DNA of 64,000 nt from NCBI GenBank assembly GCA_001464455.1, contig LNEI01000016.1:124001-188000 (forward strand), read 5' to 3'. A program made the translations under genes and the position numbers. Under the pieces are notes generated by a model. That model had not been told where the DNA came from. It did no database searches and saw only the letters and a list, made by a program, of their open reading frames with translations. Source of the stretch: Acidobacteria bacterium Ga0077534. GTDB lineage: Bacteria > Acidobacteriota > Blastocatellia > Pyrinomonadales > Pyrinomonadaceae. This document shows, one piece after another, positions 33,790 to 59,529 of this stretch; the stretch's first letter is position 1, and each line of letters opens with the position of its first letter.

Positions 33790-35562
33790 ATGAAACGATG
33801 CCCTGAATGCGGTCGCGAATACGACAATACGATGATGTTCTGTCTCGATGACGGAACGGAGTTGCTCTATGGCCCGGCGAGGTCAGTACCACCTGCGGTT
33901 TCGGGTGGGGCTTTGTCCTCTGACGACGAGCCACAAACCGCGATCTTGCACTCGACAGCCGCCCCGGGTGAAGCTCCGACTCGTGCGCAGATTCATACTA
34001 CTGAGCAGACTGCTGTTTTGCCTCGTGGAGCGGAGGCGGAGCCTCGGGAATCTTTGGGTGGCCGGTCCGAGAAGCATAGCTTCTCCGCAAATAGAGCGGC
34101 GAAGCCGCTGGTGGTAGTCGTCGCAGCCGTGATTCTTCTTGTCGGAGGGTTCTTTGGCTATCGATATTTTTCATCGGCCAATTCGAAACAGATCGAATCG
34201 ATCGCCGTCATGCCGTTTCTCAATGAGAGCGGCAATTCCGACGTTGAGTATCTGTCAGATGGCCTGACTGAGACGATCATCAAGAACCTTTCACAGTTAG
34301 CAAACCTGAAAGTTAAGCCGCGTTCGTCCGTGTTTCGTTACAAGGGCCGTGAGGCTGATATGCAGGTTATTGGTCGCGAGCTACAGGTACAAGCCATTTT
34401 AACCGGCCGGGTTATTCAGCGTGGACCGGACATTTCTCTTTTTGTGGAGCTGATAGACATTGGGTCGGACAGGGTGGTATGGAGCGAGCAATACAGCCGA
34501 AGACAAACCGACCTGGTTTCCCTCGAGCACGATGTCGCCCGCGACGTCACGGGCAAACTGAGCCTCAAATTATCAGGTGCCGAGGAGCAAAAGCTGCTGA
34601 AGAAATATACGTTAAATCCCGAGGCATATCAGCTATATCTCCGAGGTCGACATGAATGGAACAAGTTTTCACTCGAAGGTCTAACGAGAAGCATCACTTT
34701 TTTCGAACGCGCCATCCAGATAGACCCGAACTATGCTCTGGCTTACTCGGGGCTTGCGGATTCGTATGTAAATTTAGGCGTCGACTTCGTATCACCGAAA
34801 GAGACGATGCCCAAGGCAAGGAACGCGGCTCTAAAAGCCATTTCATTGGACGATTCGCTCGCGGAGGCTCATAGTTCGCTAGGGTCTTATAAGCTGTTCT
34901 ACGAATGGGACACGCAGGGAGCCGAGCAAGATTATCGTAAGGCGATAGCTCTTGACCCCAATTACGCGAACGCACGTCATTTCTATAGCCATTGCCTTCA
35001 GTTCTCGGGCCGGGAAGCCGAAGCATTAGTCGAGATGAAAATGGCGGTGGAGTTAGAGCCACTTTCTACCCTGAACAACGCAGAGCTTGGCTGGGCCTAC
35101 TACCTCGCCCGAAAGTACGACATGTCCATTGAGCAATCCCAGAAGACGCTCGATCTGGACCCAGGATTTGCCTACGGCCATTTTGTGCTCGGACTGGCGT
35201 ACAACGCAAAAGGTATGTATCCGGAAGCACGTACCTCGCTTGAGAAGGGGCTAGTGTTGGCACCGGATTGGCTTGAGATGCAAGGTTTGTTGGCGTACAC
35301 CAATGCCGCCGAAGGGGAACGTACGAAAGCCCAGGACATTCTATCGAAAGCTCTAAAGGCGTCTGAAGGCCGCTATATAAATGAGGTCATCGTCGCGTCG
35401 GTATACTCGGCACTTAATGATCAAGAGCAGGCCATGGTTTGGTTGGAACGGGGGTATCAGAACCGGTGTTCGTGGATGAAATGGATCGGGATCGAGCCGG
35501 CGCTGGATAAACTACGCCCAGACCCAAGGTTTCAAGCTTTGGCCCGGCGGGTAGGAACCTGA
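33790..35562 (+). CDS. Zinc-ribbon / TolB-N-like / TPR membrane protein (paralogue 3)
   Basis: 590 residues. Ribbon CPECGREYDNTMMFCLDDGT, then a longer linker containing the repeat-encoded peptide SVPPAVSGGALS and a second repeat-derived stretch (EPRESLGGRSEKHSFSANRA). A transmembrane helix (LVVVVAAVILLVGGFFGYRYF) precedes the TolB-N-like domain, which is of the second subtype (SIAVMPFLNESGNSDVEYLS, KVKPRSSVFRYKG, VQAILTGRV). TPRs follow. The ending LRPDPRFQALARRVGT is less like the others. It is encoded just after the propeller kinase. The linker DNA carries three palindromes (34033-34045, 34069-34085, 34095-34109). Confidence 0.85.
   Translation: MKRCPECGREYDNTMMFCLDDGTELLYGPARSVPPAVSGGALSSDDEPQTAILHSTAAPGEAPTRAQIHTTEQTAVLPRGAEAEPRESLGGRSEKHSFSANRAAKPLVVVVAAVILLVGGFFGYRYFSSANSKQIESIAVMPFLNESGNSDVEYLSDGLTETIIKNLSQLANLKVKPRSSVFRYKGREADMQVIGRELQVQAILTGRVIQRGPDISLFVELIDIGSDRVVWSEQYSRRQTDLVSLEHDVARDVTGKLSLKLSGAEEQKLLKKYTLNPEAYQLYLRGRHEWNKFSLEGLTRSITFFERAIQIDPNYALAYSGLADSYVNLGVDFVSPKETMPKARNAALKAISLDDSLAEAHSSLGSYKLFYEWDTQGAEQDYRKAIALDPNYANARHFYSHCLQFSGREAEALVEMKMAVELEPLSTLNNAELGWAYYLARKYDMSIEQSQKTLDLDPGFAYGHFVLGLAYNAKGMYPEARTSLEKGLVLAPDWLEMQGLLAYTNAAEGERTKAQDILSKALKASEGRYINEVIVASVYSALNDQEQAMVWLERGYQNRCSWMKWIGIEPALDKLRPDPRFQALARRVGT
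33882..33917 (+). repeat. In-frame SVPPAV-type repeat (copy in paralogue 3)
   Basis: GTCAGTACCACCTGCGGT followed by tTCGGGTGGGGCTTTGTC, read as S-V-P-P-A-V-S-G-G-A-L-S. CCACCTGC and the following CGGGTGG are partly self-complementary. The copies at 35721 and 39278 are closely similar; paralogues 1 and 2 lack the element at the equivalent site. Confidence 0.7.
34033..34109 (+). repeat. Three consecutive palindromes in coding linker
   Basis: GAGGC-GGA-GCCTC (34033-34045), GAGAAGC-ATA-GCTTCTC (34069-34085) and AGCGGC-GAA-GCCGCT (34095-34109) occupy the codons just before the transmembrane helix. Equivalent sets lie at 37649-37691 and 39428-39503. The spacing of three hairpins resembles the intergenic set at 56673-56757. 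Confidence 0.65.
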
Positions 35563-56790: not shown

Positions 56791-58101
56791 CTAAACGGTG
56801 CCTCTTGCGGTAGCGTTTTCTGCAATGTGTCCCAAAGCCTCCACAAACTTATTAAACCCTGCGAACCGCTCATCCTTGGTAAATCCTCTGACGTATCTTG
56901 CGTAGATCTGCTGGGCGATGACGGCGATCTTGAAGGTGCCGAAGGTGTAGTAGAAGAGCATGTCCGGCAGTTTGCGTCCCAAGATTTCTTCGTACATTTC
57001 GACGAGTTCGGCCCGTGAAATATTTTCCATCAGCACTCGCGGGTTGAAGGGCATATTTAGCATTTCCTCGCCTGCGTCGTTATCCATCCAGTAGCCGAGC
57101 GTGGTGCCCAGGTCCATTAGCGGGTCGCCGATGGTGACCATTTCCCAATCGAGCACGGCGGTTATGCGTCCCAGATCGTTTGGGTCGAGCATGACGTTGT
57201 CGAATTTGTAATCGTTGTGGATCAGCGACGCGCCCGATTCCGGCGGGATGTTCGCGTTTAGCCAGATGATCGATTTTTCGAGTGCGTCGTGATCGTGGGT
57301 CTTGGCGGCGAAGTAGCGTTTCGTCCAGCCTTCGACCTGTCGGCGGTTGTAGCCTTCGATGCGTCCCAAAGTTTCGAGGCCCGCTTTTGGGAGATCTAGG
57401 GTGTGGAGTTTCACTAGGTTGTTGATGAAAGTTTGGCAGATGCTCCGACGCGCTGTTTGTGAGGTTTCGAGGTCGTGCGGCTTGACTGCCCCACCCGCTA
57501 CAGAAGCCGGTACTGACGCGTCTTGCGTCCCAGAACTGATTGTTGAATCTGGCGCGTCGGAGCCCTTACTATGTGCGGGCTTCTGCATCGATGCGGGATC
57601 GTGCGTCCCAGGAATGCGGCCGCGGATGATCAGGCCGTGGCGGCGCTCCATTAGGTAGAATTCGGAACCGATGACCGCGTCGTTGTCGCAGAATAGCAGC
57701 GGCTTTGGTGCGGGTGCGTAGACTTTCGACAGTTTAGTTAGCACGTCGAATTCGCGACGCATGTCGTGGGCCGACTTGACTGTGTTGCCAAACGGCGGTC
57801 GGCGGAGCACGTATTCTTGCGTCTCAGGGTGCGGGTTGGGCGTATCGCCATTGCTTACGAGCGTGCTTTCGTATTTGGTTCGCACAGGGCACTCGTCCGC
57901 ACCTTCACGATCCCCGGTCACTACCGTTCCCGGTACTGACTCGGGGCGTCCGATCCGCACGAGGTACGTCAGATTTGAGCTGCCGCCGGGGAATTGTTCG
58001 ATCTCGATCTGGCCGTGCGTTCCAAGCTCGCCTTCCAGGAAAGCACGCAGCCGTTCGATATCGATCTCTTCACCCTTTCTTACCAGTTTCGTTTCACCCA
58101 T
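56791..58101 (-). CDS. APH-like phosphotransferase (ACAD10/11 kinase-half homologue) with repeat insertions
   Basis: 436 residues from ATG 58101 (MGETKLVRKGEEIDIERL); the track's longer start adds a non-homologous leader. Aminoglycoside-phosphotransferase-fold motifs: GGSSNLTYLVRIG, EYVLRRPPFGN, SLIHNDYKFDNVMLDPND (catalytic loop) and VLDWEMVTIGDPLMDLG (metal Asp). It matches the kinase half of animal ACAD10/11 and bacterial LvaA-like kinases, which phosphorylate 4-hydroxyacyl-CoA. It is about 80-90 residues longer than usual because of two inserts, one between LVRIG and EYVLRRPP and one after LIIRGRIPG; both contain repeat-encoded peptides (ESVPGTVVTG, ASVPASVAGGAV). The inserts avoid the catalytic motifs. 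Divergent from the acyl-CoA dehydrogenase. Confidence 0.85.
   Translation of the reverse strand: MGETKLVRKGEEIDIERLRAFLEGELGTHGQIEIEQFPGGSSNLTYLVRIGRPESVPGTVVTGDREGADECPVRTKYESTLVSNGDTPNPHPETQEYVLRRPPFGNTVKSAHDMRREFDVLTKLSKVYAPAPKPLLFCDNDAVIGSEFYLMERRHGLIIRGRIPGTHDPASMQKPAHSKGSDAPDSTISSGTQDASVPASVAGGAVKPHDLETSQTARRSICQTFINNLVKLHTLDLPKAGLETLGRIEGYNRRQVEGWTKRYFAAKTHDHDALEKSIIWLNANIPPESGASLIHNDYKFDNVMLDPNDLGRITAVLDWEMVTIGDPLMDLGTTLGYWMDNDAGEEMLNMPFNPRVLMENISRAELVEMYEEILGRKLPDMLFYYTFGTFKIAVIAQQIYARYVRGFTKDERFAGFNKFVEALGHIAENATARGTV
57488..57611 (-). repeat. In-frame repeat insertion 2 in phosphotransferase gene
   Basis: On the minus strand GTCAGTACCGGCTTCTGTAG then CGGGTGGGGC encodes S-V-P-A-S-V-A-G-G-A, the same frame and peptide type as in the TPR genes. 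Two copies of CTGGGACGCA(A/C)GA lie at 57521-57533 and 57599-57611 within the same insertion. The whole insertion interrupts the conserved fold after LIIRGRIPG. Confidence 0.75.
57815..57942 (-). repeat. In-frame repeat insertion 1 in phosphotransferase gene
   Basis: On the minus strand GTCAGTACCGGGAACGGTAG then TGACCGGGGATC encodes S-V-P-G-T-V-V-T-G-D. It matches the 37470 element at about 23 of 28 nt and in frame. The insertion ends with CTGAGACGCAAGA (57815-57827), a variant of the CTGGGACGCAAGA unit in insertion 2. It separates LVRIG from EYVLRRPP, which are adjacent in homologues as I recall them. Confidence 0.72.
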
Positions 58102-58241
58102 ATCATCGCCCGCCGTCCCCCGCCAATAGCAAACCGATAATGCCAGAAGATAACCCGCTTCCGCAAACGCCTGAAAACACCACGATCTCGCCCCCGAAAG
58201 ACCGCCGCTGAACCTATAGATAAAATGCCAAATATCCACTC

Positions 58242-58260
58242 TGTGAGAAAGTGTCTCACA
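58242..58260. promoter_or_regulatory. Palindromic operator candidate between divergent genes
   Basis: TGTGAGA-AAGTG-TCTCACA, perfect 7-bp arms around a 5-nt spacer, in the 240-bp region shared by the phosphotransferase and acyl-CoA dehydrogenase genes. Its size suits a TetR- or GntR-type dimer controlling both genes. No regulator gene lies beside it. Confidence 0.55.
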
Positions 58261-58328
58261 AATAAAACAAAATGTCAAGTCCCGAAATCACTTTTTCTGC
58301 CCGATTTCTTACATTTAGCATCTCGTGG

Positions 58329-58334
58329 TAATTT
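58329..58334 (+). promoter_or_regulatory. -10-like hexamer, possible leaderless start
   Basis: TAATTT ends 7 nt before ATG 58342 of the acyl-CoA dehydrogenase, and no Shine-Dalgarno is present. Confidence 0.4.
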
Positions 58335-58341
58335 TACAGTC

Positions 58342-59529
58342 ATGAATTTCGAAAATTCGGCCAGATCGGCCGAGGTCGCGGGGCGACTTTCGGCTTTTAT
58401 GGATGAGTTTATTTATCCGAACGAGGCCGCGTACGCGGCTGAGATCGGAACGGGTGATCGCTGGGCTCCGCTTGAGCTGGTGGAACGGCTGAAGAGTGAA
58501 GCGAAGGCGGCGGGGCTTTGGAATCTGTTTCTTCCATCGGAGTCGGGTTTATCGAATCTCGAATATGCCCCGCTCGCCGAGATCATGGGCCGCGTGACTT
58601 GGGCAAGCGAGGTTTTTAACTGCTCGGCTCCGGATACGGGGAACATGGAGGTGCTGCATCTTTATGGCACTGATGAGCAGAAAGCGAAATGGCTGCGCCC
58701 GTTGTTGGACGGTGAGATTCGCTCGTGTTTCTCGATGACCGAGCCAAACGTGGCTTCGTCGGATGCGACGAATATTCAGTCGTCGATCGTCAGCGACGGC
58801 GACGATTATGTCTTAAACGGCGAGAAATGGTGGTCGACCGGCGGCGGTGACGCGCGGTGTAAGCTGTCGATATTTATGGGCAAAACTGACGAGTCTGCCG
58901 CGAAGCATTTGCAGCAGTCGATGATCCTAGTCCCGATGGACACGCCCGGCGTTATCGTTCAGCGGCAGCTCGATGTGTTTGGTTTCGACGATGCTCCGAA
59001 CGGGCATTCACAGATATCGTTTATTAATGTACGCGTTCCAAAATCAAACATCCTACTCGGCGAAGGCCGTGGCTTTGAGATAGCGCAGGGAAGGCTCGGG
59101 CCGGGGCGTGTGCATCATTGTATGCGGCTGATCGGCGTGGCTGAGCGTTCGTTGGAGTTGATGTGTGCCAGGGCGAAAAGGCGCGTTGCGTTTGGCAAGC
59201 CCGTCGCTGACCAAGGCGTCGTCCGTCAGTGGATCGCCGAAGCTCGCTGTGCCATCGACCAGGCACGGTTGCTCGTTCTCAAAACCGCCTGGATCATGGA
59301 CACCGCCGGCAACAAAGCCGCCCGCCGCGAGATCGCCATGATAAAAGCCGTCGCCCCAAAGATGGCGCTCAAGATCATCGACCGAGCCATCCAGGTTCAC
59401 GGCGGAGGCGGCGTTTCGCAGGATTATCCGCTGACTCAGGCTTGGATTTATGCGCGATCGCTGCGTTTAGCCGACGGGCCCGACGAGGTTCATTTAGAGT
59501 CGGTGGCTCGGATGGAGATCTCGCGGTAA
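58342..59529 (+). CDS. Acyl-CoA dehydrogenase (ACAD10/11-like)
   Basis: A 395-residue FAD-dependent dehydrogenase. Visible: [18 protein letters not shown] and [20 protein letters not shown] at the flavin/substrate site, [20 protein letters not shown], and the C-terminal family motif [19 protein letters not shown]. The sequence is of the ACAD10/11 branch. In animals that domain is fused to an APH-like kinase and acts on phosphorylated 4-hydroxyacyl-CoA; here the kinase is the divergent neighbour. ATG 58342 is preferred over the track's 58225 because the conserved N-terminus ([20 protein letters not shown]) follows it directly. Confidence 0.9.

Follow-up and report, generated by a model that had tools for sequence, protein, structure and literature searches.

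A presumably working APH-fold kinase encoded in the 64,000-nucleotide window (the whole stretch of DNA that was analysed) very probably has two surface loops lengthened by the in-frame insertion and later decay of REP repeats common to its genus in the Pyrinomonadaceae (Blastocatellia, Acidobacteriota). The same gene also carries copies of a short word, TTGGGACGCA, whose distribution differs from that of the repeats and which is treated separately below.

An ACAD11/LvaA-type kinase with two extra segments

The open reading frame at 56791-58101 was correctly delimited in the first-pass annotation, and homologues favour the methionine at 58101 as its start codon. Its product matches PF01636 (E=2.9e-41, Pfam), and the closest structures in sequence and fold searches are PDB 9o56, ACAD11 (8v3u/8v3v), 3dxp and a 25-hydroxysteroid kinase. 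An acyl-CoA dehydrogenase (ACAD) is the usual partner of ACAD11-type kinases. The protein combines the PF01636 fold with the HxDxxxxN and DWE motifs and shares this association, as an ACAD gene was found at 58 of 80 homologous loci (flank up to 3 kb); the pairs are divergent in nearly all listed loci having an ACAD. The gene, its neighbour and its extra segments are as follows.

56791..58101, minus strand: CDS of the APH-fold (PF01636) ACAD11/LvaA-type kinase, 436 aa (from Pfam, PDB and dN/dS)
57196..57219, minus strand: catalytic loop HNDYKFDN, invariant in a 60-sequence alignment
57124..57150, minus strand: metal-binding DWEMVTIGD, with D318, W319 and E320 invariant in the 60-sequence alignment and the whole motif nearly so
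58225..59529, plus strand: acyl-CoA dehydrogenase gene, divergent from the kinase (ACAD at 58/80 homologous loci)
57820..57942, minus strand: insert 1, residues 54-94, 41 aa, without counterpart in 28/29 genus homologues; pLDDT <50 at 57-88
57481..57606, minus strand: insert 2, residues 166-207, 42 aa, composite, at a hotspot site; pLDDT <50 at 177-201

Both active-site motifs had been read as intact, and they are invariant or nearly so over the 60 homologues. The backbone is under purifying selection, with dN of 0.14-0.26 against dS of 1.3-1.9 (dN/dS ~0.1). Together these sequence comparisons show an evidently intact, constrained enzyme of the ACAD11/LvaA type, with the ACAD as its likely partner.

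The query is longer, at 436 aa, than insert-free genus homologues (351-355 aa), in agreement with the homologue length of about 350 residues given in the first-pass annotation. Two extra segments of about 45 residues had been described; both are present, but this length was slightly high. Nearly all homologues among 97 relatives searched match residues 1-53, 95-165 and 208-436 as separate pieces that either adjoin or are parted by a short gap. Insert 1 forms the turn joining two N-lobe strands (E45-50 and E95-100), and insert 2 follows the strand leading out of the N-lobe. In the AlphaFold model (mean pLDDT 83.9, backbone mostly >90), the only segments reported below 50 are the middles of the two inserts, at the residues listed above. 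PDB 9o56 and ACAD11 (8v3u/8v3v) align around both gaps, and the PDB relatives lack the inserts. The first-pass annotation had anticipated loops, which the model supports; homologues sharing the segments in conserved form were looked for and did not appear, as most lack both segments and the others carry different sequence. Both inserts are predicted to be disordered loops on an intact fold. They are, on the comparisons made, real and evidently recent at the scale of the genus.

Repeat families in the inserts and across the genus

Three repeat copies were located within the inserts.

57913..57939, minus strand: exact copy of REP-C, TCAGTACCGGGAACGGTAGTGACCGGG, a hairpin (fold z = -4.2) in insert 1, read in frame as SVPGTVVTG; 24 places in own genome
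57494..57516, minus strand: degenerate REP-A copy in insert 2, read in frame as SVPASVAGG; 62 places in own genome, controls 0
57562..57583, minus strand: decayed REP-B copy GAAGCCCGCACATAGTAAGGGC in insert 2, read as QKPAHSKG; family in 39/41 genus genomes

These matches show both the insertions and the identity of the repeats, with the inserts evidently derived from at least three genome-wide REP families. The in-frame repeat peptide that had been noticed in each insert thus belongs to REP-C in the first and REP-A in the second. REP-A (TCRGTACCNNCTGCGGTAGCGGG) occurs at 62 places in the own genome and at 0-85 in genus mates, being found in 35/41 genomes; REP-B (GAAGCCCGCACGTNAGTAAGGGC) occurs at 40 places in the own genome and reaches 166 per genome across 39/41 genus genomes; and REP-C, with 24 places in the own genome, reaches 29 per genome across 34/41. 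Reversed-pattern controls were zero or nearly so for all three families and 0 in the own genome. The REP-B copy at 57562 is one base shorter than the search pattern and is therefore absent from the listed matches.

The families resemble REP/REPIN elements in being palindromes of 20-40 nt dispersed in many copies and in forming inverted pairs at a fixed short distance (46 bp for REP-B, mostly 54-89 bp for REP-A). A head, GTCAGTACC, is common to REP-A and REP-C; the conserved form is GTC[AG]G[TA]ACC with a variable base preceding it, and GGTAG lies inside the hairpin. The end tetranucleotide of REPs is GTAG or CGTC. Folding was significant for the REP-A consensus (z -3.4) and for the REP-C copy, but not for the decayed copies.

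REP/REPIN elements are mostly extragenic, whereas 28 of the 58 REP-A copies located in the own genome fall within ORFs of >=250 aa whose flanks look coding, about half being not clearly within genes. The intragenic copies show a marked frame bias: 27/28 are in frames s0/a0, reading SVPPAVAGG or PPATAGGTD, and one is in another open frame, although members of a pair are not independent and the effective n is nearer 20 than 28. The sole exception is in an agmatine-deiminase-like ORF (L116, G000:C29:48249), where REP-A occupies an otherwise unused frame (VSTACSSGRG). Genes with in-frame REP-A, named from recognisable sequence, include DnaE, UvrA, MutS2, PurH, MetRS and a MurC-type ligase; the repeat occurs as inverted pairs in the MutS2-like ORF, DnaE and an ABC transporter, and singly in UvrA, PurH and MetRS.

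Elsewhere in the window, in-frame REP-A cores at 33883, 35722 and 39278 (plus strand) lie in the linker after the N-terminal domain of three tandem paralogous ORFs. These paralogues are 540-620 aa long, with an N-terminal MKRCPECxxDYYDD and TPR-like repeats later, and a fourth is found at G000:C19:158362. A terminase-like ORF of 887 aa (L119, G000:C4:52000-56000) carries REP-A together with three long copies of a SWTGGVAAASADGVV-type repeat.

REP/REPIN elements go with a RAYT (Y1 transposase) gene flanked by the repeat. Ten Y1_Tnp (PF01797, RAYT-like) ORFs were found in the genome, and beside two of them, no more than about 1 kb away, is an inverted pair of REP-B. The 1.5 kb around each of the ten contained no REP-A, and mobilisation of REP-A by a neighbouring RAYT was rejected on this ground. 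That the repeats arrived by RAYT transposition is thus inferred rather than observed.

Site 2 is clearly longer than the basal 25-26 residues in 13/29 aligned genus homologues, and a codon-level alignment reveals differing contents:

SEPPAVAAG in G032
SVPPALAG in G039
GVPPSGG and GVPPLGG in G008 and G025
SSPPYEGGVAAASADG in G009
SAPPYEGG in G018
YHLRERVGSS twice in G005, a REP-like repeat whose frame is closed by TAG in the consensus and has GAG here
REP-B relics in G016 and G037

At site 1, the query apart, only G034 among the 29 genus homologues has extra sequence, a different segment of 21 aa. Beyond its REP, most of insert 1 (GGTGCGGACGAG...) has no other match in 41 genomes; a further dispersed repeat in its middle was considered and rejected, with no second match among these genomes. 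A fourth palindromic family, CCCCTCCTTACGAAGGAGGGG, with peptide PPYEGGVAAASADG, is also found in frame in genus proteins (G000 C27:64934 region), the kinase hotspot included (L043 and L044, site 2).

In the mechanism that we propose, palindromic REP-type repeats, delivered to the kinase by RAYT transposition, would have inserted in frame and then decayed, lengthening the two surface loops. The repeats tolerated in genes would be those whose frame, a single one on each strand, yields a Pro/Ala/Gly-rich peptide (SVPPAVAGG or PPATAGGTD), so that they would become disordered loops and be nearly neutral. The second loop would act as a permissive hotspot, struck by different repeats in many species. 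Such repeated colonisation of one enzyme loop by different repeats would constitute a natural test of insertion-tolerant protein sites and frames.

An alternative is that the inserts have a function of their own, as regulatory or partner-binding loops under selection. Their staying in frame within a constrained gene and the lengthening of site 2 in 13 homologues would fit, but their contents vary among species and match genome-wide repeats, and they are predicted to be disordered and are absent from PDB relatives; we regard this as very unlikely and infer that the repeats have no function in the protein. Decay of the gene into a pseudogene, or an origin of the inserts as assembly artefacts, is highly improbable and already contradicted, for although genes in decay commonly show inserted repeats, 436 codons are open, the catalytic residues are invariant, dN/dS is low, the partner ACAD gene is conserved next door, and independent MAGs of sister species have insertions at the same sites.

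A lineage-specific word in the kinase and other genes

The first-pass annotation had also described a second unit within the inserts, at 57521, 57599 and 57815. It is present there but not confined to them: the kinase CDS holds five copies of the core TGGGACGC where 0.05 would be expected (Poisson P about 3e-9), and those at 56973, 57165 and 57360 lie in the conserved backbone. The repeat origin of the inserts held, and this unit is a separate, lineage-restricted word that also sits in conserved codons.

57818..57827, minus strand: word CTGAGACGCA, differing from TTGGGACGCA at 2 positions, at the 3' end of insert 1; TTTGGGACGCA at the same place in G034 (L039)
57524..57533, minus strand: word CTGGGACGCA within insert 2
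57602..57611, minus strand: word CTGGGACGCA at the 5' edge of insert 2; at the same place CTGGGACGTA in G034 and TTGGGACGCG in G032
57360..57369, minus strand: word TTGGGACGCA in conserved backbone (ETLGRIEGYN), identical in G032 and G034
57165..57174, minus strand: word CTGGGACGCA in conserved backbone (NDLGRITAVL), with Gly for the usual Thr; of 29 homologues common to G032 only
56973..56982, minus strand: word TTGGGACGCA in conserved backbone (EILGRKLPD), identical in G032 and partly kept in G034

Allowing at most one mismatch, the kinase CDS holds 7 copies in the query, 9 in G032 and 5 in G034, all on the coding strand, against a total of 3 in the 27 remaining homologues. The word overwrites codons in conserved gene parts, with no indel at these places; for example, NDL(T)RITAVL has become NDLGRITAVL through the word in the query and G032. 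In a quinone-oxidoreductase-like gene the own genome (G000) and G034 carry five words each, three of which occupy shared columns; the 28 other genus homologues, G032 included, carry none. In an oxidoreductase gene the word occurs four times in G000 and is missing from G034, and elsewhere there is a single copy with one mismatch. Where amino acids are conserved, shared words are nearly identical, as against about 40-57% matching among identical-residue codons elsewhere, a comparison that rests on few cases and is somewhat biased by choosing sites through the word itself. This difference suggests that shared words may be maintained or renewed at the nucleotide level.

Genome-wide, TTGGGACGCA has 76 copies in G000, 82 in G032 and 42 in G034 (5-6 for the reversed control), and a tree of the kinase groups these three genomes in one clade (support 0.949). 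Only these 3 of 119 family genomes are enriched, the remaining 116 being near control with a highest count of 26, and a family-wide feature was rejected on this basis. Membership of the word in REP-A was likewise rejected, as REP-A occurs in 35/41 genomes and the word is enriched in three, and words also occur in genes without REPs. The words belong to a lineage-specific process, separate from REP insertion.

The 76 copies in the 4.2 Mb of the own genome form 33 clusters, within which 43/43 neighbouring pairs are on one strand; the expectation for random placement is 2.6 pairs within 2 kb. Extended, the consensus reads aaaTYTGGGACGCA (10-12 bp). Of the coding clusters, 12/13 are on the sense strand, and clusters also lie between genes. 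The word contains no stop codon in either orientation and is read in each of the three frames (LGR, WDA and GT). A single cluster, of 7 copies, was found antisense to the best-scoring ORF (L167, G000:C11:22800-25800). Apparently non-coding arrays with TTGGGACGCA and REP-A were observed at L171, L172 and the starts or ends of contigs C10, C18, C19 and C31; they consist of tandem-like units spaced at about 66 bp and 217 bp, and several are at contig ends.

It is plausible, if still short of probable, that aaaTYTGGGACGCA is a new intragenic element, written without indels into the coding strand of unrelated genes in same-strand clusters within the three-species clade, changing amino acids and then retained at the nucleotide level. 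If true, this reading would fit a transcript-level recognition site or a sequence-writing or drive process. To our knowledge, no known process fits a 10-bp word in three species that overwrites conserved codons in strand-biased clusters.

More doubtfully, the words (in the AAAUUUGGGACGCA form) are putative transcript sites, for example for an RNA-binding protein or small RNA, with clusters held by selection in particular genes. Consistent with this, the sense-strand bias is strong although neither orientation contains a stop, and words are kept at the nucleotide level between species with synonymous sites near saturation; the antisense cluster at L167 and the clusters between genes argue against it. 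A transcript-level site best fits the strand bias, and the fit of DNA uptake words is poor.

It is very improbable that the word is a DNA uptake sequence, propagated through biased transformation. In favour, its 10-12 bp consensus is over-represented in one clade and overwrites codons in several frames, and a genome-wide over-represented word of 9-12 bp is indeed found (76 copies vs 5 in the control), in three genomes only. Against this, 76 copies only in 4.2 Mb, 33 clusters and one-stranded neighbouring pairs throughout contrast with dispersed words in both orientations, and sense orientation in 12/13 coding clusters contrasts with the lack of orientation bias in uptake sequences (PMC1939737). 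This candidate was rejected on clustering and strand bias.

Comparison with known systems

The kinase shares its fold, catalytic residues and acyl-CoA dehydrogenase association with ACAD11/LvaA-type hydroxyacyl kinases (8v3v, 3dxp, 9o56); unlike them, it has two extra loops, and here kinase and dehydrogenase are separate divergent genes. Rickettsia palindromic elements (RPE), known earlier, are in-frame insertions that add peptide to unrelated proteins. The present REPs, in frame within conserved proteins, resemble them in behaviour, and the host here is an acidobacterium whereas that of RPE is an obligate intracellular bacterium.

In-frame intragenic REPs, comprising GTAG and CGTC palindromes, are known from the work of Di Nocera et al. 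2013 (PMC3733652). Like those reported here, they are short many-copy palindromes, often in inverted pairs, in frame within ORFs and in many replication and repair genes (uvrA, dnaE), and related species occasionally have them at one shared position (Xanthomonas recB), as in the kinase. Our repeats differ in sequence (GTC head, three families) and lineage (Pyrinomonadaceae), and in that about half of located REP-A copies are intragenic and one loop has been struck by several repeat families. As in-frame intragenic REPs were already known from that study and from RPE, the kinase inserts are ordinary in kind, and they add a common soil lineage to those whose proteins are decorated with in-frame repeats.

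What is novel is the TTGGGACGCA word, which deserves follow-up. No paper on Pyrinomonadaceae REPs or on this word was found in a search mostly outside subscription journals, which is weak evidence. With the DNA uptake sequences of Neisseria and Haemophilus the word shares being short, lineage-specific and written into coding sequence; unlike them, it is rare, clustered and strand-biased.
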